Translations under genes and position numbers: made by a program
Source of the DNA: a bacterium
GTDB taxonomy: Bacteria; Hinthialibacterota; Hinthialibacteria; OLB16
Direction of reading: 5' to 3'
DNA: 64,000 bases
NCBI GenBank assembly: GCA_022072055.1
Contig: JAJVIK010000015.1
Coordinates: forward strand, 62,001-126,000
The notes under the pieces: generated by a model
Told to the model about the DNA's origin: nothing
What the model saw: only the letters and a program-made list of their open reading frames with translations
Databases searched by the model: none
In this document: positions 43,876-55,929 of the stretch, piece by piece
How the letters are laid out: every line of letters starts with the position of its first letter
How positions within the stretch are numbered: position 1 is the stretch's first letter

Positions 43876-45110
43876 ATGTTTCGACGAAACATTGAGTCAT
43901 CCCTCCTTGCGGCCCTTGGGGACACTCCCGTGGTGCTCCTGCATGGGGCGCGTCAGACCGGGAAGACCACTCTGGTTCGATCCCTGAGCTGGGGGGGCAT
44001 CCGGTCCGGTATCTGACCTTGGATGATTCGACAGTGTTCTCCTCGGCGACAGGAGATCCGGACGGTTTCCTCCGTGGCCTCGATAGGGCGGTGGTCCTGG
44101 ACGAAATTCAGAGGGTCCCCGAGCTGTTCCGCGCGCTAAAAGCCGAGGTGGACCGTAACCGGGCGCCGGGAAGATTCCTCCTTACCGGTTCGGCAAATGT
44201 CCTGCTCCTCCCTCGGCTCGCGGAGACTCTGGTGGGGCGAATGGAAATACTCCCCCTCCGAACCCTTTCTCAAGGGGAAATCCTGGGTGTCAAAGAAACC
44301 TTTGTCGACTCCCTCTTCGCGCGAACTCCGCCAAGCAGCGCGACCCCAACGGAATCGAGAACCGCCCTATTCGAGCGTATCCGCGCGGGGGGATTCCCCG
44401 AAGCGGTCCAACGGGAGGATCCCACCCGCCGGCGACGATGGTTTGACTCGTACATCACCACACTTCTTCAGCGGGACATTCGAGACTTGAGCCAAATTGA
44501 AGGGCTCGCCGAGGTTCCCCGCCTTCTTTCCCTCCTTGCAACCCGCGTCGCTTCCCACCTGAATCACGCCGATCTGTCACGAAGCTTGGGAATCCCTCAA
44601 ACCACCCTCAAGCGATACATGGCCCTGCTCCAGGCCACTTTTCTCATCCGGACATTGCCGGCTTGGTCCGGCGACCTCGGAAAGCGCTTGGCGAAAGCTC
44701 CCAAGGTCCTGTTTTGCGATACAGGTCTGTTGTGTCACTTGCTCGGGGTGACCGACGAAGCTCCCGCCCGCGAGGGCAATCTGCTTGGACCGATCGTGGA
44801 GAATTTTGTCGCCATGGAGGTTATTAAGCAGATCTCCTGGAGCCGAACCCGGCCCCAGATGTTTTGCTTTCGCACCCACTCCGGCGAAGAGGTGGACTTG
44901 GTTCTGGAGGATTCCCGCGGGCGGATTGTGGGCATCGAAATCAAGGCCAAGGATTCTCTCCGACCCGAGGACCAGCGGGGGCTGAGGTCCTACTCAGAGT
45001 GCCTGGGGGATCGGTTTCACCTGGGAGTCTTGCTTTACCGGGGATCGGAGACAATCCCGCTCGGGAAACGCCTCATCGCAATGCCGATTTCCGCGCTGTG
45101 GACCGGATAG
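43876..45110 (+). pseudogene. DUF4143-type AAA ATPase with frameshift in a G run
   Basis: Two frames together encode one ATPase. The first starts MFRRNIESSLLAALGDTPVV and has Walker A GARQTGKTTLV, but stops at 44015. The second resumes with HPVRYLTLDD and continues through VVLDEIQRVPELFRALK (Walker B), LLTGSANVLLLPRLAETLVG and the C-terminal nuclease-like GEEVDLVLEDSRGRIVGIEI. The break is at seven G (43991-43997); adding one G restores a single 411-residue protein. It may be a sequencing error, a true null mutation or slippage. The family is a mobile accessory ATPase (AAA_14 with DUF4143), often called a predicted DNA-binding ATPase of unknown role. Confidence 0.85.
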
Positions 45111-45129: not shown

Positions 45130-45205
<76 letters not shown>

Positions 45206-45628
45206 CTGGATGGCGTTCTGAATATACACGCGGGCGGGAACAGGTCAAGACAACCCCAAAACGCGCAAAAAAACCAACCCCCGCCGCAACCGTGCGAATT
45301 CGATCTGTGCTGAGACCTACCTCTCAACACTTTGGGTCCATTTGGGGTCTTTTGGCTTCCCTCTACGCGGAGGGCCTGCTCGGTCCCCAAAAGAAGGACC
45401 CTTCTTGATTCTGTAGCCTCACAAGACCGACGTCACGTGAAGGGCAGGGGTCGATGCTTTGATCCCAACTCTCTTTCTCAGATTATACACGCGCCCCGAA
45501 GGACAGACAACCTTTTGTGAGAGGTCTGAATCCTCCCATCCGGAGTCCGGGAAATCCTCGGATCCCGGGATCGGAACTTCTTCCTGCGAGGGGCCACGCA
45601 TGAACCGCGGACACGCGGCTGTTGCAGG
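45206..45628. other. Gene-free stretch
   Basis: About 420 bases without a gene I can support. Short frames on both strands are low-complexity or lack starts. The DNA is locally less GC-rich and holds several short runs of C, T and A. The promoters of the tRNA and of the next gene must lie here, but no box pair stands out. Confidence 0.6.
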
Positions 45629-47992
45629 ATGAAGTTTCTGGGGGGACTGGTAATATGGTTCCATTCCGCCATGGTACAGCCACTTCCCGAACTCCCAGCC
45701 CAAGCGGCGGCGCGGACCAACCCGCTGATGAGACTTTCCTGGTGGGGCGTGTTGGCGGCTATAGTCGTGCTTGCCGTCTGGCTTCGATGGACTGTTTTTC
45801 AGGTCTACCTCGACAACGAATCGCTCTTCCCCGTTCCCGCGCGCGCCGAGCGCGCCATGCAGTGGGCGTCCGAAATACTGGGGGATGCCGCCACCGGGGG
45901 AATGGGTGGGGTTGCCACGCATGATGACCCGGGATACGCCCTGCTGGTGGCCCTTTTCTGGGGGGTGTCCGGAGTCCACACGGCGGTCGCCATTCAGGTC
46001 GGGACCCTCCTGTGCGACCTGCTCGCGCTGGTGCTGCTTTCACACGCCACTCGCCGACTCTTCGGCCCCAGCCCCGGCCTAATCGTCGGCGCTCTCTACG
46101 CCGTGTACATGCCCATCATCATCGAGGGTTGTTTTCTGAATAACCTGGCGGCGGTCGTACATTTCGCGATCTTCGCCATCTGGCTCCTTGCTATCCCCCG
46201 CGCCTCAAATCGACTCCAATTCGTGTCCATGGCGCTTGCTGGGCTGGTCGCTGGGTTGGCCTCGGTGGTTCGCGTGACCTTTCTCCTCTTCCCGGTCCCG
46301 GCGGGACTTCTGCTGCTCTGTCGGGACGGGTGGAGGAAGGGGGGGCTGTTGGCATTGACCTTCTGGATGACTGGCTATGGGGCCTTCTTCGCTATCAGCG
46401 GCTGGATGGGTGGAGGCGCGCACACCTTCTGGCACTCGTTCCACACGGGACTCGGAGACTTCCCCAATCCTCTCGGGATCGGACGAACCGATTTGACCAC
46501 CTTCATCGACGCCGATGAAACCGCGCGCGGGACCCTGCCGTATCAGGGGGATTACGACGCCATCTTGAAAGCTCGCTCACTGATGATTGTCGCCGACAAT
46601 CCGGGTTTTTATCTCAATCTCCTGGCCAAGAGAACGTGGAAGGTCCTGTTCGGACAACAAGACTGGTGGATCCTGGCCGGTTTTGGAGTGGTTGCCCCTC
46701 AGCTGAAGATCATTACATGGTCTCTTTTCTCACTATGCCTTGTGGGAATCGCCATCGTCTGTAGACACTCCTGGTCGTCGGCGGCCTTTCTGATCCTGGG
46801 CCATCTGTATTTCGCCCTCTGCGTGGTCCCAGTGATCGTGTATCACTCTGGGTACTATCTGACCGCCTCGGTCCTCCAACTGCCGTTCGCCGCGCTCGCG
46901 CTTTCGCGCCTTTGCAGGCTTTTTCCTCTGGCGGATCCGAGTAGGGAACACGAAGCCTGGAGGCTGTCGCCGCTCTCGCCACGCCCTCTGCTTGGGGCGG
47001 TTGTCGTGGGGACCTTGATCGCCCTCGTTTCGGTGGGCGCGCTTTTCCTCCACGCTCGGCGGGTCTCCGGATCTTGGAAACAGGACCTGCTCCAGCGAAT
47101 CTCCTCACACGCAGCGGTTTCGAGGTGGGGCGAACACGCCCCGGCGAATCACCTGGATGAAATCGTCTTGGACATCACCCCCGAACTCGCGATCGGCGAC
47201 ACCTATTTGGCCCATGTGACTCTTGATGTCGAACGCGGACGCATCGCGACGGTAGTCGAGGACGCCACTGGGAAACCCTGCGGCAAACCCGCCTACACCA
47301 CCGCCCCGGGACTGGCCCATTGCCTTTTCGGCTGGACAGCCAAGTCCTCCGGATCCTTCCGACTGCGCGTGTGGGATTCCCTCCCGATCCATTTCCCGGC
47401 TTACTATGACGAGCTCAGCTCGGCCACCCTGGAGGGCGCCTTTCGCCACTTTGGCATACTCGACCACGCCAAGTTTGAGTTCTTCCCGAACCTCCGCGTG
47501 GAAGCCAGCGCGTCCAACTTCCCGAATGGGCACGAGTCACTCCCCTTCAAGTTCGATAAGATCCGGTGGTCGCTCAACGAAACCCAGAAGATTCCAAACT
47601 ACTGGGCCACGCATGCTCCCTGTCACCTGCAACTCACTCTTCCGCATGAGCCCACCGTTTGCCGACTCATTCTGCATCTGTTGCCCACGAGTTTTTTCCC
47701 ACCCGTGGTTACAGTCCAGAAGCCCGGCGGGAAAGGCCTATCCTGGCTTGAGCCGCTTCGGACACTCCGGGATTCGGAAGGTGGCGAGATCCGCTATGAT
47801 TTTGTCCCCACGCAAATCAACCGCCTCCGACTTTCATTTCTTGGGGCCGAGGTGGAGAACCGACTTGTGAGCATCCGGGATGTTTCCATTCCCGATCCGG
47901 CGCGATTCCGGTTGCGCGAGGCGGCCCTGTATCACCTCGGGAGTGCTCGGGTTGCCGGTTACCCGACACGCCTCTCCTTCCTGGAGCATTGA
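45629..47992 (+). CDS. GT-C glycosyltransferase-like membrane protein with C-terminal domain
   Basis: A 787-residue protein: about 11-12 spans in residues 30-480, then a 300-residue exposed C-terminal part. The first exposed loop after span 1 carries VYLDNESLFPVPARAERAMQ, whose acidic pair resembles the GT-C catalytic region, and THDDPGYALLVALFW follows. Polyprenol-phosphate sugar donors are likely. The C-terminal part is beta-rich (GDTYLAHVTLDVERGRIATV, SSGSFRLRVWDSLPIHFPAY), perhaps carbohydrate binding. ATG 45629 has a weak ribosome site; ATG 45671 is an alternative. It is followed closely by two small genes on the same strand. Confidence 0.75.
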   Translation: MKFLGGLVIWFHSAMVQPLPELPAQAAARTNPLMRLSWWGVLAAIVVLAVWLRWTVFQVYLDNESLFPVPARAERAMQWASEILGDAATGGMGGVATHDDPGYALLVALFWGVSGVHTAVAIQVGTLLCDLLALVLLSHATRRLFGPSPGLIVGALYAVYMPIIIEGCFLNNLAAVVHFAIFAIWLLAIPRASNRLQFVSMALAGLVAGLASVVRVTFLLFPVPAGLLLLCRDGWRKGGLLALTFWMTGYGAFFAISGWMGGGAHTFWHSFHTGLGDFPNPLGIGRTDLTTFIDADETARGTLPYQGDYDAILKARSLMIVADNPGFYLNLLAKRTWKVLFGQQDWWILAGFGVVAPQLKIITWSLFSLCLVGIAIVCRHSWSSAAFLILGHLYFALCVVPVIVYHSGYYLTASVLQLPFAALALSRLCRLFPLADPSREHEAWRLSPLSPRPLLGAVVVGTLIALVSVGALFLHARRVSGSWKQDLLQRISSHAAVSRWGEHAPANHLDEIVLDITPELAIGDTYLAHVTLDVERGRIATVVEDATGKPCGKPAYTTAPGLAHCLFGWTAKSSGSFRLRVWDSLPIHFPAYYDELSSATLEGAFRHFGILDHAKFEFFPNLRVEASASNFPNGHESLPFKFDKIRWSLNETQKIPNYWATHAPCHLQLTLPHEPTVCRLILHLLPTSFFPPVVTVQKPGGKGLSWLEPLRTLRDSEGGEIRYDFVPTQINRLRLSFLGAEVENRLVSIRDVSIPDPARFRLREAALYHLGSARVAGYPTRLSFLEH

Positions 47993-48735: not shown

Positions 48736-48759
48736 GGCAGACATCCCCGCCTGTCCTAC
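48732..48759. repeat. Dispersed hairpin between two convergent genes
   Basis: GTAGGGCAG and CTGTCCTAC form a 9-base stem with one G-T pair around ACATCCCCGC. The plus arm supplies the TAG of the Nudix gene, and the minus arm supplies the TAG of the esterase gene. It matches the element at 22.32 kb (GCC/GCA, CCCC loop, GCCTGTCCTAC). Confidence 0.85.
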
Positions 48760-50762
48760 GGGATCACCTCAACCTCGGGTCCATAGAGGGACCGAACCTC
48801 TTCCTCAGTCGCCCGATCCCCGGTTACCTTTAGAGCGGATCGCAATACCACCTTGCGCGGGAGAATGGATCGCGCCAGGTCTGGTATATCCGCCGCAAGG
48901 AGCATCCCGGGGGCAACATTCGAAAGAACCCCCAGCGTGTAGGGCGCCTCGAATACCGAATCCCACGAGATCAGCCCCTCGGTCAGGACCAGCTTTGCCA
49001 CGGTGGGTTCAAGTGTCGTGGCCATGAGCGCTGCCGGAGTGGTCTCCCGGAAGGCGTTCACCTCGATGGCTTTTCCGGGGAACCGAGCCTTGAGCAGGTC
49101 CAAAGCGGCCAAGACATCCTCTGTCCGTTGGGCGAGGAGCGGGCGGTTCAGGTGCAGCGCGAGAAACGAAACCACCCAATCGCCAAAAAACTTGTCCAAC
49201 TCACCCCCCTTGTACCGGTCGCCCTGGTCGAGACCTCGCGGAGAGACGACAAGGACCGGATGTCCCGCGCGCGCCTCCGTCTCGGGGGACTCGTCGCCTT
49301 CCGCGCGGGCCAGGTCGGCCAGCCACAAGACCGGGTCGGAGGTCGCCCCCGCTTCGGGTTCGAGGAGCCGCGCTTGGAGTTCCCAACCCGGCTCGATCTC
49401 AGCGGTCAAGGTGGTTTCCACCAGGGTGTCGTGCACGACCCCGCCGCTCTCGGTCCACTTAAGCTCTTTTGGGCGCTCCACTTTGGCCACCCAGACAGCG
49501 GAGCGAGCGCGTTCCTCCACGCCGCGCGACTGTCGGATCTCCCGCAACTCAGCCGCCTCCTCGGCGTAGATCGAGGCCATGGTCCGCGCTCCGGGAACGG
49601 AGGTGAGAACCTGTCCGCTTTCCGTGCAATTCAATTCCTTGGCCGGGAGCAGCGGGGTTTCCGGCTCGGGCGTCTCATCGAACTCGCGTTTGAGCCAACG
49701 GGCCATCCAGTGGTACATCGCGGTCCGCTGCGGCTGATGGTAGCCGTGCTCTCCCGGCGATTCGATGATGTCCACTCGCTCCGGCATCCCAAACCGTCCG
49801 AAGAAGCCCTTCGCTTCGCGGAAGGTCTCCCAGGTTCCCTGAATGTCAAAGAAGTCCTTTGTTGCACAGCAGAGTAGGACCGGTCGCGGCAGGCAAGCCT
49901 CCACAAAATCGGCCTGATCGAAACCCGCGGCCACCTGACCGATCAGATTCTGTTCGGCGTCCTGGGGACCGATGGTCTCGAAAAGCCTCTTGAGGGAAGT
50001 GATGTAACAGGACACCGCCGCGCATTGGATTCTCTTATCGAGCGCCATCAGATAGGCGGTCTGCGTTCCTCCGCCGGAGTTTCCCGTACATCCGATCCGC
50101 GTCCTGTCGATCTCCGGGCGTGTTTCGAGATAATCGATGGCGCGCATCCCATCCCAGATCATCTCGCGCGCGAAGGACTTGCCGAGGAGCAGCGCCATCA
50201 CCCCGAGCTGAGTGTGCTCCGTGGTGCCCCAGAACAGCGGGCTTTTGTCCTCTTTGAGATACGAAAGGCGCTCGCCTTGGCCGATCGGGTCAAACGAGAG
50301 GACCGCGAAGCCCCTTCGCGCGAGATTGATCCAGCAGGTCTGGTAGGTGTCGTGGGCCTTCGCGTCCAAACCATGCCCACAGGGACCCAGCACGGCGGGG
50401 AAGGGGGGAGTTCCCTTGTTTGGAAGATACAGATTGGCGGTGACCGGGAAATTGGGGCGGGACTCGAAGATCACTCCCTCGACTCGGTAATCCCCGAAGT
50501 CCTTGGTCCACAGGGTCCGGGGATTGAGCGTGGTCCGATCCGGCAGCCCCCCCACGGACAGGACCATTGCCTCGCGGACCTCCTCACCGCGCGCGAGAAG
50601 GCCCTCCGGAGAGGAGATTGCTTGGATTTTCTCGTGACGTTCGTCCAAGCGCGCGCGCGCCTGCTCCAGGAGATGCTTGTACAGGGGTGATTTCACCATC
50701 TCCGCTCCTTGAGCAAGGGTCGGTATGAGCGTGAGGATGAAAAGGGCTTTGCGCATGATCAC
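48756..50762 (-). CDS. Secreted alpha/beta hydrolase, acetyl-esterase-like
   Basis: A 668-residue exported hydrolase. The signal peptide runs to about residue 20. The catalytic part resembles acetyl xylan esterase/dienelactone-like enzymes: VTANLYLPNKGTPPFPAVLG, PCGHGLDAKAHDTYQTCWIN, LSFDPIGQGERLSYL, nucleophile Ser in GCTGNSGGGTQTAYL, and catalytic His region ESPGEHGYHQPQRTAMYHWM. The C-terminal half (about 400-668) is a second hydrolase-like domain lacking an obvious nucleophile. Carbohydrate deacetylation is plausible; the exact substrate is unknown. The ATG overlaps the upstream GT-C/phosphoesterase fusion by 4 bases, so they are one operon; MRKALF two codons later is a possible start. 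Confidence 0.83.
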   Translation of the reverse strand: MIMRKALFILTLIPTLAQGAEMVKSPLYKHLLEQARARLDERHEKIQAISSPEGLLARGEEVREAMVLSVGGLPDRTTLNPRTLWTKDFGDYRVEGVIFESRPNFPVTANLYLPNKGTPPFPAVLGPCGHGLDAKAHDTYQTCWINLARRGFAVLSFDPIGQGERLSYLKEDKSPLFWGTTEHTQLGVMALLLGKSFAREMIWDGMRAIDYLETRPEIDRTRIGCTGNSGGGTQTAYLMALDKRIQCAAVSCYITSLKRLFETIGPQDAEQNLIGQVAAGFDQADFVEACLPRPVLLCCATKDFFDIQGTWETFREAKGFFGRFGMPERVDIIESPGEHGYHQPQRTAMYHWMARWLKREFDETPEPETPLLPAKELNCTESGQVLTSVPGARTMASIYAEEAAELREIRQSRGVEERARSAVWVAKVERPKELKWTESGGVVHDTLVETTLTAEIEPGWELQARLLEPEAGATSDPVLWLADLARAEGDESPETEARAGHPVLVVSPRGLDQGDRYKGGELDKFFGDWVVSFLALHLNRPLLAQRTEDVLAALDLLKARFPGKAIEVNAFRETTPAALMATTLEPTVAKLVLTEGLISWDSVFEAPYTLGVLSNVAPGMLLAADIPDLARSILPRKVVLRSALKVTGDRATEEEVRSLYGPEVEVIP

Positions 50763-53110
50763 TCCTTATGGGCCAGGTGGAATTCCGGATCTCCCCATGC
50801 CTCGTCTCCCATTCGGTCCTTCGGATCGATGGGAATGGACCCCTCGTCGATCACTTGTTCAATCCCGTTGATCGCCTGGAACCGACACTCTTTGGGCGTG
50901 AAGGTCAATACCAGCGCGATGGTGGTTTCATCATTGCCCGCGATGAGGTCCGGATCGTCCCTGGAAAGGCTCCCCTCATCCAGCTCGCCTCCCGACCCCG
51001 CGATGAAATACTGGATTCCGTTTTTCGGTCGCAATCTCTGATACACATGGCAGTGGCCCGCGAGCACAATGTCCACACCGCCATCAACCAGGATCGGCTC
51101 GAGCGCCTCGCGCAGCTTGGCGTCCGGCTCCGGGTGCTCCTTGGAACGTCCGTATATCGGGTAATGCAACCCCACTACCTTCCAGGCGGCGGAGCTCTGC
51201 CCCAATTCCTTTCGCAGCCATTCAAGCTGCTTCTCATCTCCGGGAAGCGTGTTGGAATCCAAGACAAACCCTTGCACCAGATTGTCCCCGAAGACGCGGG
51301 AGTAGTATCGCCGCCCGTTCATGTTGAAGAACGGGTGATTGATCTGAAACCCGGCGAACCCCCCATCCACGTCGTGGTTTCCGAGCACCGCGAAGAAGGG
51401 GACCCCGTTCTTGATCAGGGCGTTGTAGGGCTGCGAAATGTGGTCATCAAAGAACCTCGGGTCCCCATCGAAGGAGAGGTTATCCCCCAAGAGAAGGACA
51501 CCGTTCAGGGTCAGCGCCGCGTCCACATGATTCAAGGCGGAGCCAAGCTGAATCTGGCGAGGGTCGCCGGATCGGGTGTCCCCCATCGCGGCGAGGTGCA
51601 CCGTGCGGGCGTCATCGGGCGCGGGGGAACAGATCAACATGCGCCATTCATAGGGTCCGGGCTTCTCCTCGTAGGGGGTCCCAGTCGCTTCGATGGCTTG
51701 TTTGACCCAGCCGTAATCCTTTTCCCGCGCCAGAAAAACATGATGTTCGGCGCTTGTACGGAGTTCATGGATTTCCATCTCAAGAGGTTCGGGCAGATGA
51801 AAGAAGGGATACGGGTCGGAATGCGTGGTGACCCACTCCACATTCCCGCCGCTGTAGAACGAAAGGCCGTGACGCCTTCCGGTGACTACCACCAGTTCAT
51901 AGCGCGCGTTGGGGAGCTCCCTCCGGATCGCCTCCCAAAAGGCGCGCGTGTCCCTCTCGGTGGGCATGTGGGCGACAAACGCCTTGATCGCAAGCAGCGC
52001 CAGGCACCAAGTCGCGAAAATTGCGACAGGTTTCGGTGGGATGGAGTCCGAGAACCAAGCGGGCCTCCACGCGATCCAACAACGAGCGCAGAGGATTGCG
52101 AGGGCAGGGAAGACCGGCAGGAGATAGAGGATCAGACGGGACCGGGCGGCGCAAAAAATCAGAACCGGGACAATAATCCAAAGCCCCAGGAACAACCCGG
52201 GCCGCTGTCCTGAGGCGAACAATCGGCTCCGCCAAGTCCTTCCCGGCGACCGAAGCGATCCCAGCTGGGAATAGCAGCTGAGGGACCACGGCAAGGTTCC
52301 CACCAGGAGGACCGGGAGATAGATCACAATGGGCTTATAGAACTCAGGGTTCCGGTCGTACTTGTCGGTGAAGAGACGTCCGATGACCTGATTGTCCCAA
52401 GCGTAGGCCAGCGCGCCGGGGACAAACTCATAAATCATCACGTACCAGCTGCCTCCAATCAGCGCGGCGATAAGAACCAGAACCGGGAAGTCCCACCGGA
52501 GGAGGAACTTCCCAACCTGCTTGGTGAAAATCAGATAGAGCGCGAGGGGAGGCAGAAAAACCAGAATTGCGGGTCCCTTGGCCAGGACCCCCACGCCGAG
52601 GGAAACAGCAAACCCCAGGCGATAGAGATGCCGCGAAAGCGAGTCCTCGGCGGCCAACGACTTCCAAAAGCAGAAGGCCACGGCGGTCACCCAAAAGGCG
52701 AGCGGAGTGTCGGGTGTGACAATGTTGGCCGAGAAGAAGGGCAGGATCATTGTGGCGTACACAAGCGACGCGAGAACCCCGGAGCGCTTGTCCCACATCG
52801 AGGCGGCGAGCAGTCCGGTGAGCAGCGCGGCGAGGGAGAACCACAGGGCGTGCGCGAGGCGCGCCCCCCATTCATTGAAACCGAAGAGAAGCATCCCCAG
52901 CCCGGAGCCCCAATACATGAGCGGCGGCTTCTCGAGGAAGGGGCGCAGATTGACCTGGGGAACCACCCAATCCCCGGTCTCGACCATGTTGCGCGCCGCG
53001 CCGATATAGAAGCCCTCATCCGGCTCCCAGATCCCGCGCGTGCCTTGGAAAGAGAAGGCCAGGAAAAGGATCAGCGCGGCGAGACCGAACACCAGGCGCG
53101 ACTGGCTCAC
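50759..53110 (-). CDS. GT-C glycosyltransferase fused to calcineurin-like phosphoesterase
   Basis: A single 783-residue protein. Residues 1-385 are an ArnT/PMT-type GT-C enzyme with the catalytic acidic motif GIWEPDEGFYIG (about 26-37) after the first span and GVGVLAKGPAILVFLPPLAL, typical of polyprenol-linked sugar transfer. A beta segment (390-495) follows. Residues 499-783 form a metallophosphoesterase with all metal ligands: MGDTRSG (Asp511), LLLGDNLS (Asp543), LGNHDVD (Asn578, His579), GLHYPIY (His649), AGHCHVYQR (His686, His688). The phosphatase would sit on the outer face, next to the sugar-transfer site. No frameshift separates the halves. The esterase gene follows, coupled by ATGA. 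Confidence 0.92.
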   Translation of the reverse strand: MSQSRLVFGLAALILFLAFSFQGTRGIWEPDEGFYIGAARNMVETGDWVVPQVNLRPFLEKPPLMYWGSGLGMLLFGFNEWGARLAHALWFSLAALLTGLLAASMWDKRSGVLASLVYATMILPFFSANIVTPDTPLAFWVTAVAFCFWKSLAAEDSLSRHLYRLGFAVSLGVGVLAKGPAILVFLPPLALYLIFTKQVGKFLLRWDFPVLVLIAALIGGSWYVMIYEFVPGALAYAWDNQVIGRLFTDKYDRNPEFYKPIVIYLPVLLVGTLPWSLSCYSQLGSLRSPGRTWRSRLFASGQRPGLFLGLWIIVPVLIFCAARSRLILYLLPVFPALAILCARCWIAWRPAWFSDSIPPKPVAIFATWCLALLAIKAFVAHMPTERDTRAFWEAIRRELPNARYELVVVTGRRHGLSFYSGGNVEWVTTHSDPYPFFHLPEPLEMEIHELRTSAEHHVFLAREKDYGWVKQAIEATGTPYEEKPGPYEWRMLICSPAPDDARTVHLAAMGDTRSGDPRQIQLGSALNHVDAALTLNGVLLLGDNLSFDGDPRFFDDHISQPYNALIKNGVPFFAVLGNHDVDGGFAGFQINHPFFNMNGRRYYSRVFGDNLVQGFVLDSNTLPGDEKQLEWLRKELGQSSAAWKVVGLHYPIYGRSKEHPEPDAKLREALEPILVDGGVDIVLAGHCHVYQRLRPKNGIQYFIAGSGGELDEGSLSRDDPDLIAGNDETTIALVLTFTPKECRFQAINGIEQVIDEGSIPIDPKDRMGDEAWGDPEFHLAHKE

Positions 53111-53403: not shown

Positions 53404-53637
53404 ATGAGAACCACCTTGGTTATTGATGATGACCTTCTTTCAGCGGCGAGGAGCTTGGCGCGAACCAGGTCGGAAACGGTCGGGCGTGTGCTCTCCGACT
53501 TGGCGCGACGAGGTCTGGCCGCGACGCCTCGCGTGGAAAAAAGCGGTGGGCCAGGCGGGTTCCCGGTGTTCCGAGTCCCCCCGGATGCTCATCCCATCAC
53601 GCTGGAGGACGTGCGAAGGCTGGAGGATGAGATTTGA
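53404..53637 (+). CDS. VapB-like antitoxin
   Basis: A 77-residue protein with an N-terminal ribbon-helix-helix unit: MRTTLVIDDDLLSAARSLAR, then TRSETVGRVLSDLARRGLAA. The C-terminal half (VFRVPPDAHPITLEDVRRLE) is the extended toxin-binding segment. ATG 53404 is used since the RHH fold starts there; the longer frame reads through the promoter. Its stop overlaps the toxin's TTG start by 4 bases. Confidence 0.85.
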   Translation: MRTTLVIDDDLLSAARSLARTRSETVGRVLSDLARRGLAATPRVEKSGGPGGFPVFRVPPDAHPITLEDVRRLEDEI

Positions 53638-54086
53638 CCGTCGGCTTGCTGGATGTGAACGTGCTGGTGGCGTTGGCTTGGCCGTCTCACGTTCACCACC
53701 GAGAAGCACACATTTGGTTTGATGAAAACCAAATGCATGGCTGGGCGACCTGTCCCTTGACCCAATGCGGTTTCGTGAGAATCTCTTCCAACCCTCGAAT
53801 CATCCGTGAGGCAGTTTCACCGATTGAGGCACTGGTCCTCCTGAAGGAGATGACATCATTGGATCACCATGATTTCTGGCCTGACGACACACCCCTCCAC
53901 GAGGAATCATTCCCCACGGAGCTCCTCGTCGGTCACCGTCAGGTTACTGACGCCTATCTCCTTGGCTTGGCTATCCGCCACAAGGGTAAGTTGGTCACCC
54001 TTGATCAGTCGTTGTCGGGGCTGCTTCCCGCAAGCAGTCCTCATCGGGTTGCGCTGGAGGTTGTTTCCGTCAAGCCTGGTCGCTGA
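53634..54086 (+). CDS. VapC-like PIN-domain toxin
   Basis: A 150-residue PIN nuclease with the acidic site conserved: LLDVNVLVALAW (Asp7 region), an acidic position in the central part, QVTDAYLLGLAIRHKGKLVT (Asp) and LDQSL. VapC toxins cleave tRNA or rRNA. The start is TTG inside TTGA, overlapping the antitoxin stop, typical of coupled pairs. Length is slightly above the family average. The pair sits between the GT-C operon and leuB. Confidence 0.9.
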   Translation: MTVGLLDVNVLVALAWPSHVHHREAHIWFDENQMHGWATCPLTQCGFVRISSNPRIIREAVSPIEALVLLKEMTSLDHHDFWPDDTPLHEESFPTELLVGHRQVTDAYLLGLAIRHKGKLVTLDQSLSGLLPASSPHRVALEVVSVKPGR

Positions 54087-55360: not shown

Positions 55361-55591
55361 ATGAAAGTCAAGACTTCGATCACACTTTCCGAGGACCTAC
55401 TCCTGGCGGTGGACAGCCGCGCGGGGCATCACCGGAGCCGCTCCGACTTCATTGAAACCGCGGTACGGGATCGGCTGGCGCGTCTGGAGTGGGAGGAGCG
55501 CGAGGAAAGGGACCTGGAGATTTTGAATCGCGAGGCCGAGCGTCTCAACCGCGAGGCTGAGGATGTGCTTGGGTATCAAGTGATCCCATGA
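55361..55591 (+). CDS. Ribbon-helix-helix antitoxin (MazE-like)
   Basis: A 76-residue protein: [20 protein letters not shown] is the strand and first helix, [20 protein letters not shown] the second helix of a ribbon-helix-helix DNA-binding domain. The C-terminal part ([20 protein letters not shown]) is a charged helix that would block the toxin. No ribosome site is seen, which matches the leaderless promoter. ATGA couples it to the toxin gene. Confidence 0.88.
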
Positions 55592-55929
55592 AGCGCGGCG
55601 ATCTCTATCGAGTGGAGCGGCCGAGCTCGAAGGACCCCAAGAAGCATCGCGCCTTTGTCGTTGTCAGCCGCCAGGTTCTGATCGACTCCAAGTTCTCAAG
55701 CGTGATCTGCGCCCCGGTTTACTCCGCGCGTCATGGGTTGTCCACTCAGGTCTCCGTCGGGGTCGGGGAGGGTTTGAAGCACGACAGCAGCATCCACTGT
55801 GATGAGTTGGTCAGCCTTCCCAAAGCGATTCTCACCAACTATATCGGAGCCCTGTCGCCGGGAAAAATCCATGAGTTGGACCGCGCCCTTTGTTTCGCGC
55901 TCGCTCTCGGCCCTGGATCCCGGATGTAG
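55588..55929 (+). CDS. MazF/PemK-type mRNA interferase toxin
   Basis: A 113-residue toxin of the CcdB/PemK fold: [20 protein letters not shown], then [40 protein letters not shown] and [20 protein letters not shown]. The RGDLY start, R..VVVS, and the conserved D-x-L-x-S-L-P-K (near residue 73) are family features. MazF cleaves mRNA at short motifs. It lies on the plus strand, with its stop two bases from the convergent secreted nuclease gene. Confidence 0.9.

Follow-up and report, generated by a model that had tools for sequence, protein, structure and literature searches.

A protein in which a GT-C glycosyltransferase of the ArnT type is followed on the same chain by a calcineurin-like metallophosphoesterase of the purple acid phosphatase (PAP) type is encoded in the window (the whole stretch of 64,000 nucleotides analysed here), and the same pairing of domains was found in five genomes from two phyla. 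The gene (Table 1) is a single open frame of 783 codons with a GTG start, and the placement of the GT-C motif WEPDEGFY within one 783-residue protein, as claimed by the original prediction, was borne out (residues 28-35). Pfam matches were obtained to PMT (residues 5-231, E 6.8e-18, 65.5 bits against a curated cut-off of 22.7), PMT_2 (residues 61-218, E 4.7e-16, 59.8 bits against a curated cut-off of 26.1) and Metallophos (PF00149, residues 524-690, E 1.2e-12, 49.1 bits against a cut-off of 21.5). Since relatives also encode the two domains in a single frame, the pair is not a product of chance, and the fusion architecture was confirmed as real and not an artefact; a frame of 481 aa on the + strand opposite the gene was taken to be its shadow. 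Each half is of a known kind, and no description of the pairing was found in the open-access literature searched. Among plasmid records, a full-length match to the fusion was not found, the matches listed there being to GT-C only.

Table 1. Positions of the features described in the text (window positions unless a locus is named)
Feature	Position	Strand	Evidence
Fusion gene, 783 aa, ArnT-like GT-C then PAP-type metallophosphoesterase	50759..53110	-	open frame, Pfam, relatives
GT-C membrane part, residues 1-382, with WEPDEGFY 28-35, K61 (LEKPP) and R245	51965..53110	-	Pfam PMT/PMT_2, ArnT alignment, fold match Z 30, 11 hydrophobic segments
Soluble alpha/beta domain, residues 383-497, counterpart of the ArnT C-terminal periplasmic domain	51620..51964	-	AlphaFold model, alignment to ArnT up to residue 570
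Metallophosphoesterase domain, residues about 504-755	50846..51601	-	Pfam, ligand alignment, profile matches to solved structures
Acetyl-xylan-esterase-like gene, signal-like N-terminus, downstream of fusion	48756..50756	-	Pfam, sequence, orthologue loci
AAGGAG, probable esterase ribosome-binding site, within the 3' end of the fusion gene	50762..50767	-	sequence
PAP2-GT-C fusion, G008	L036:7976-10429	+	PAP2 domain match
PAP2-GT-C fusion, G013	L035:5592-8054	-	PAP2 domain match

ArnT-type enzymes use a polyprenyl-phosphate sugar donor and a periplasmic acceptor, and ArnT was the closest solved relative of the N-terminal part in the sequence search (2.5e-20). The AlphaFold model, whose input alignment contained four Acidobacteriota GT-C relatives, was usable for residues 1-497, and this part was superposed by VIA-align on residues 26-570 of ArnT (5f15) with a Z score of 30.0 at 5.0 Å over 455 residues, the match spanning the first helix through the end of the ArnT periplasmic domain; Foldseek agreed (E 1.1e-12). 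On this model, residues 1-497 constitute a complete ArnT-type GT-C enzyme, and since the match runs from end to end, the phosphoesterase begins where ArnT ends, at about residue 500. The protein shares with ArnT (5ezm and 5f15) the entire fold, down to the C-terminal periplasmic domain, as well as the loop Arg and the motifs PDEGxY and EKPP; ArnT, however, has no phosphoesterase. WEPDEGFY aligns with PDEGRY, which in ArnT is the acidic motif of the first periplasmic loop. The Tyr of the RYA motif, the Lys of FEKP and the Arg of the second periplasmic loop are required for ArnT function (PMC5377068), and Y35, K61 and R245 are plausible counterparts of these residues in the alignment. The nearest NCBIfam model was the ArnT equivalog, and as the score (141.2 bits) lies far below its cut-off (567), the sugar and the acceptor cannot be assigned.

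Both the GT-C and the phosphoesterase domains were predicted to lie on the periplasmic side, as the original prediction presupposed, on the basis of the ArnT fold and of published data on the ArnT C-terminus, which was placed in the periplasm by cysteine labelling and by the activity of a C-terminal ArnT-PhoA fusion (PMC5377068). On a simple hydrophobicity scale, 11 hydrophobic segments were counted in the GT-C half, an odd number as are the 13 helices reported for ArnT (PMC5377068), and a strongly basic loop (residues 279-303, five K/R and zero D/E) was assigned to the inside. Stand-alone relatives of the phosphoesterase carry export signals: the G037 protein has a signal anchor, and those of the two cyanobacterium-like genomes G204 and G335 have RR-type signals resembling Tat signals.

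The best solved matches of the C-terminal domain were purple acid phosphatases and mammalian tartrate-resistant acid phosphatase (1.5e-11 with the sequence alone, 3.3e-22 with a profile), with which it also shares the motif order GD..GD..GNHD..H..GHxH. The claim that all metal ligands are intact held for D510 (GDTR), D543 (GDN), N578 (GNHD), H649, H686 and H688 (GHCH), and the catalytic H579 (GNHD) is also present; it failed for the Tyr with which purple acid phosphatases bind the first metal (GDxxY), a position taken here by Ser546 (GDNLS), and for the DxH His, which is absent. In contrast to the tartrate-resistant and purple acid phosphatases, therefore, a purple Fe-Tyr centre is not expected, and the domain is fused to a membrane glycosyltransferase. 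The Tyr is likewise missing from the remaining f1 copies as well as from G322 and G037, and is retained in the fusion of G005 and in G204 and G335. Judged from these residues, the window copy retains the greater part of the metal site but not the whole of it, and its activity is not assured. The fold assignment rests on the sequence matches: AlphaFold, whose input held no homologues of this domain, modelled it at a pLDDT of about 30, and a Foldseek match to rat PAP was weak (probability 0.93, E 0.17) and was not counted as proof. No PAP2 domain, the fold of LpxE, was recognised by Pfam in the fusion protein, which is thus set apart from the LpxE/LpxF-type phosphatases.

The search for the domain pair in other genomes showed that the fusion is not unique to this assembly, although it is rare (5/386 genomes in a broad sample). 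A second full-length copy, 59% identical, is present in the window's genome (L029:6233-8695, -); GNQD replaces GNHD in it with loss of the catalytic His, so that its phosphatase activity may be altered or lost. The fusion was also found in sister genera, cut by a contig end in G002 and interrupted by a one-base frameshift in G001; in the distant family f4 of the same phylum, as a protein of 852 aa built on a different GT-C (G005); and in a second phylum, as a protein of 811 aa (G322). The split in G001 is doubtful as a natural two-gene form, as it results from a single base and the G001 orthologue of the downstream esterase is also broken into several frames; the breaks in both genes (L030:7461-9916, -, and G001:C79:3901-5855) are probably assembly noise. 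Between copies, conservation of the phosphoesterase equals or exceeds that of the GT-C part (identities of 61 versus 58%, 60 versus 42% and 51 versus 39%, respectively).

In the phosphoesterase tree, the tested fusions and the separate G037 protein grouped as a single clade (99/96) nested among stand-alone, exported phosphatases. The GT-C half of G005 fell elsewhere in the GT-C tree, and a single clade with the other fusions, hence a single origin of all fusions, was rejected for the GT-C part (AU p 1.2e-5), although the long branch of G005 calls for caution. GT-C relatives without the phosphoesterase (G055 and Acidobacteriota) fell among the f1/G322 group, and a grouping of the fusions alone was disfavoured (p 0.007). 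Since the GT-C halves are split between clades, either the joining of the two domains happened on more than one occasion, or the phosphoesterase was lost and exchanged; the exact count of origins is weakened by the long branches. Among the 388 genomes around G335, the strongest matches listed were all in frames no longer than 380 aa, which are too short for a fused GT-C. A stand-alone relative with the complete Tyr-containing motif and Tat-like signals was observed in 226 of these 388 genomes, which are probably cyanobacteria, usually as one copy (loci including L072 and L073).

G037 belongs to the same second phylum as G322, and the genes common to their loci include purB (at 79% identity), one for an acyltransferase (70%) and one for a GT-C (54%). 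This GT-C gene is followed by the fusion in G322 and by the phosphoesterase alone on a membrane anchor in G037. By this comparison, G037 has dropped the fused GT-C half or never had it, and the two domains are separable. The row of genes in G322 (GT2, LAB_N, GT-C and the GT-C-phosphoesterase fusion; L071:3191-8670) places GT2 and LAB_N upstream, so that enzymes of polyprenyl-phosphate sugar and lipid A type accompany the fusion there; the downstream part of the row is what G037 has in common with it. A general linkage to LAB_N was discarded, as LAB_N is at the G322 locus yet absent from the window's genome.

A second kind of phosphatase-GT-C chain was found within the same phylum in G008 and G013 of the sister family f5, where an ArnT-like GT-C of 817-820 aa carries an N-terminal PAP2 domain (1.1e-16). 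These proteins, too, combine a phosphatase and an ArnT-like GT-C on one chain; unlike in the window's protein, the phosphatase is of an unrelated fold and is sited N-terminally. In the PAP2 domain, KX6RP and RX5HX3D are present and PSGD stands in place of PSGH, the same His-to-Asp change as in Aquifex LpxE (PMC6581854). A metallophosphoesterase gene lies directly upstream of the f5 fusion. Phosphatase-GT-C coupling has arisen more than once, and the occurrence of two phosphatase folds on ArnT-like GT-C proteins in one phylum argues that the coupling matters.

The downstream esterase gene was proposed to be coupled to the fusion gene by ATGA, as a hint of a surface glycan-modifying unit. The esterase is a real neighbour in the window; the neighbourhood, however, is not conserved in relatives. 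The TGA of the fusion gene lies at 50761-50759 and the ATG of the esterase at 50756, two bases further on, so that the codons do not overlap; from this spacing and the AAGGAG within the end of the fusion gene, co-transcription is likely here. The esterase family was detected in 14/14 genomes of the phylum, and a conserved esterase operon was ruled out by orthologues on other contigs in the sister genera and by differing, unrelated neighbours at the other fusion loci, which leave the proposed unit unsupported. Several further features of the window were recorded. Another PMT_2 GT-C protein (787 aa, 45629-47992, +) has a long C-terminal soluble part without a recognised family, and a tRNA gene adjoins a 6S RNA (45130-45453, -; Rfam RF00013, 50.8 bits). 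A gene for an AAA_14/DUF4143 ATPase (44019-45110, +) matches PADLOC candidate PDC-S01 at 8e-142, its N-terminal part being apparently missing, as the match begins at model position 58. A PIN-domain gene (53634-54086, +) and a PemK/MazF-like toxin gene (55588-55929, +) flank an isocitrate/isopropylmalate dehydrogenase gene.

From the architecture, the GT-C fold, the periplasmic side, the recurrence and the lipid A genes, all obtained by calculation and comparison, we tentatively propose that this two-domain inner-membrane enzyme exchanges phosphate for sugar on a periplasmic phospho-acceptor; we infer for this that the phosphoesterase is active, that the two domains have a common substrate, and that lipid A is that substrate. 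The ArnT-like GT-C part would take a sugar from a polyprenyl-phosphate donor and pass it on to an acceptor in the periplasm, a lipid or a glycan, while the C-terminal metallophosphoesterase would strip a phosphate monoester from the same acceptor and so free the hydroxyl on which the sugar would replace the phosphate. Lipid A, at its 1- or 4'-position, or another phosphoglycolipid would be the most plausible source of this phosphate. Action of the phosphatase at the site of transfer is plausible, since both domains are periplasmic and the fusion recurs in other genomes and in another phylum. LpxC and LpxK are present in the window's genome, so phosphorylated lipid A is expected, and the only PAP2 match there resembles, from its sequence, a secreted, dockerin-tagged haloperoxidase-like protein and not LpxE/F. 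Dephosphorylation of lipid A followed by GT-C transfer has a precedent in LpxE/LpxF with RgtF/RgtD (PMC7663294, PMC6581854). The proposed logic of periplasmic dephosphorylation and then GT-C sugar addition is that of these phosphatases and GalA transferases of rhizobia and Aquifex, which differ in being separate proteins with phosphatases of the PAP2 fold, whereas a calcineurin-like domain is borne here on the GT-C chain. In Pseudomonas, ArnT binds LpxT, a PAP2 enzyme (PMC13142001). Against the exchange reading we counted the PAP2 proteins also carried by G002, G322 and G037, the loss of the Tyr ligand in the f1/f29 clade, GNQD in the paralogue, the separable form in G037, and the GT-C relatives without phosphoesterase in Acidobacteriota and G055. 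The narrower version, a bifunctional one-chain enzyme for the phosphate-to-sugar replacement of lipid A or a phosphoglycolipid, with a calcineurin-like lipid A phosphatase and with the same idea reached independently by the PAP2 sister family, would be doubtful.

The domain might instead be a general periplasmic phosphomonoesterase that scavenges phosphate and uses the GT-C protein as a mere anchor, as would suit its closest stand-alone relatives, which are the single exported phosphatases of the genomes around the cyanobacterium-like G335, and its persistence in G037 on a simple membrane anchor without a fused GT-C. A random anchor, however, would not be a GT-C protein each time: the same phosphoesterase clade is joined to two separate GT-C clades, its unfused form still adjoins a GT-C gene, and the phylum also has ArnT-like GT-C proteins fused to PAP2. 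Scavenging is thus rather unlikely. A phosphoesterase that has become a non-catalytic module, binding phosphate or docking the acceptor for the GT-C enzyme, would account for the lost Tyr in the f1/f29 clade and for the paralogue without its catalytic His; it is an unlikely reading for the window copy, where six ligands and the catalytic His are retained, and the G005 fusion retains the Tyr as well.

Two further explanations were considered. The product of ArnT-type transfer is already polyprenyl monophosphate, so that, from known chemistry, recycling of the carrier is not obviously needed, and hydrolysis of stalled polyprenyl-phosphate(-sugar) intermediates to return the carrier lipid is improbable. 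UpsH (YpbG) of Bacillus subtilis, a metallophosphoesterase likewise acting on polyprenyl-linked envelope intermediates, appears to free undecaprenyl phosphate from undecaprenyl-diphosphate-linked polymers (PMC11898649) and lends this explanation some support; UpsH, however, is unfused, works at the cytoplasmic face on diphosphate-linked intermediates, and is a member of a different superfamily group (COG1408). Alternatively, the domain could dephosphorylate the polyprenyl-phosphate-linked sugar before its transfer by GT-C, as with decaprenyl-phospho-ribose-5-phosphate, and a phosphatase, a polyprenyl-phosphate sugar synthase and a GT-C are known to cooperate in pentofuranose addition (PMC11127046). 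The known dephosphorylation, however, belongs to donor synthesis before export, while this domain is predicted to be periplasmic, and a phosphoribosyltransferase was not seen in the fusion-locus neighbourhoods examined; such processing of the donor is distinctly unlikely.

Sugars stand in place of lipid A phosphates in some bacteria, and in several of them it has proved difficult to trace the phosphatases involved; those of Aquifex could not be identified in one study (PMC7663294), and a 1-phosphatase was described in another (PMC6581854). If the exchange of phosphate for sugar applies, one protein may both remove the phosphate and add the sugar. That one phylum has two phosphatases of unrelated fold, each fused to an ArnT-like GT-C, suggests a candidate enzyme class, and the coupling of phosphatase and GT-C can be tested directly on single proteins.
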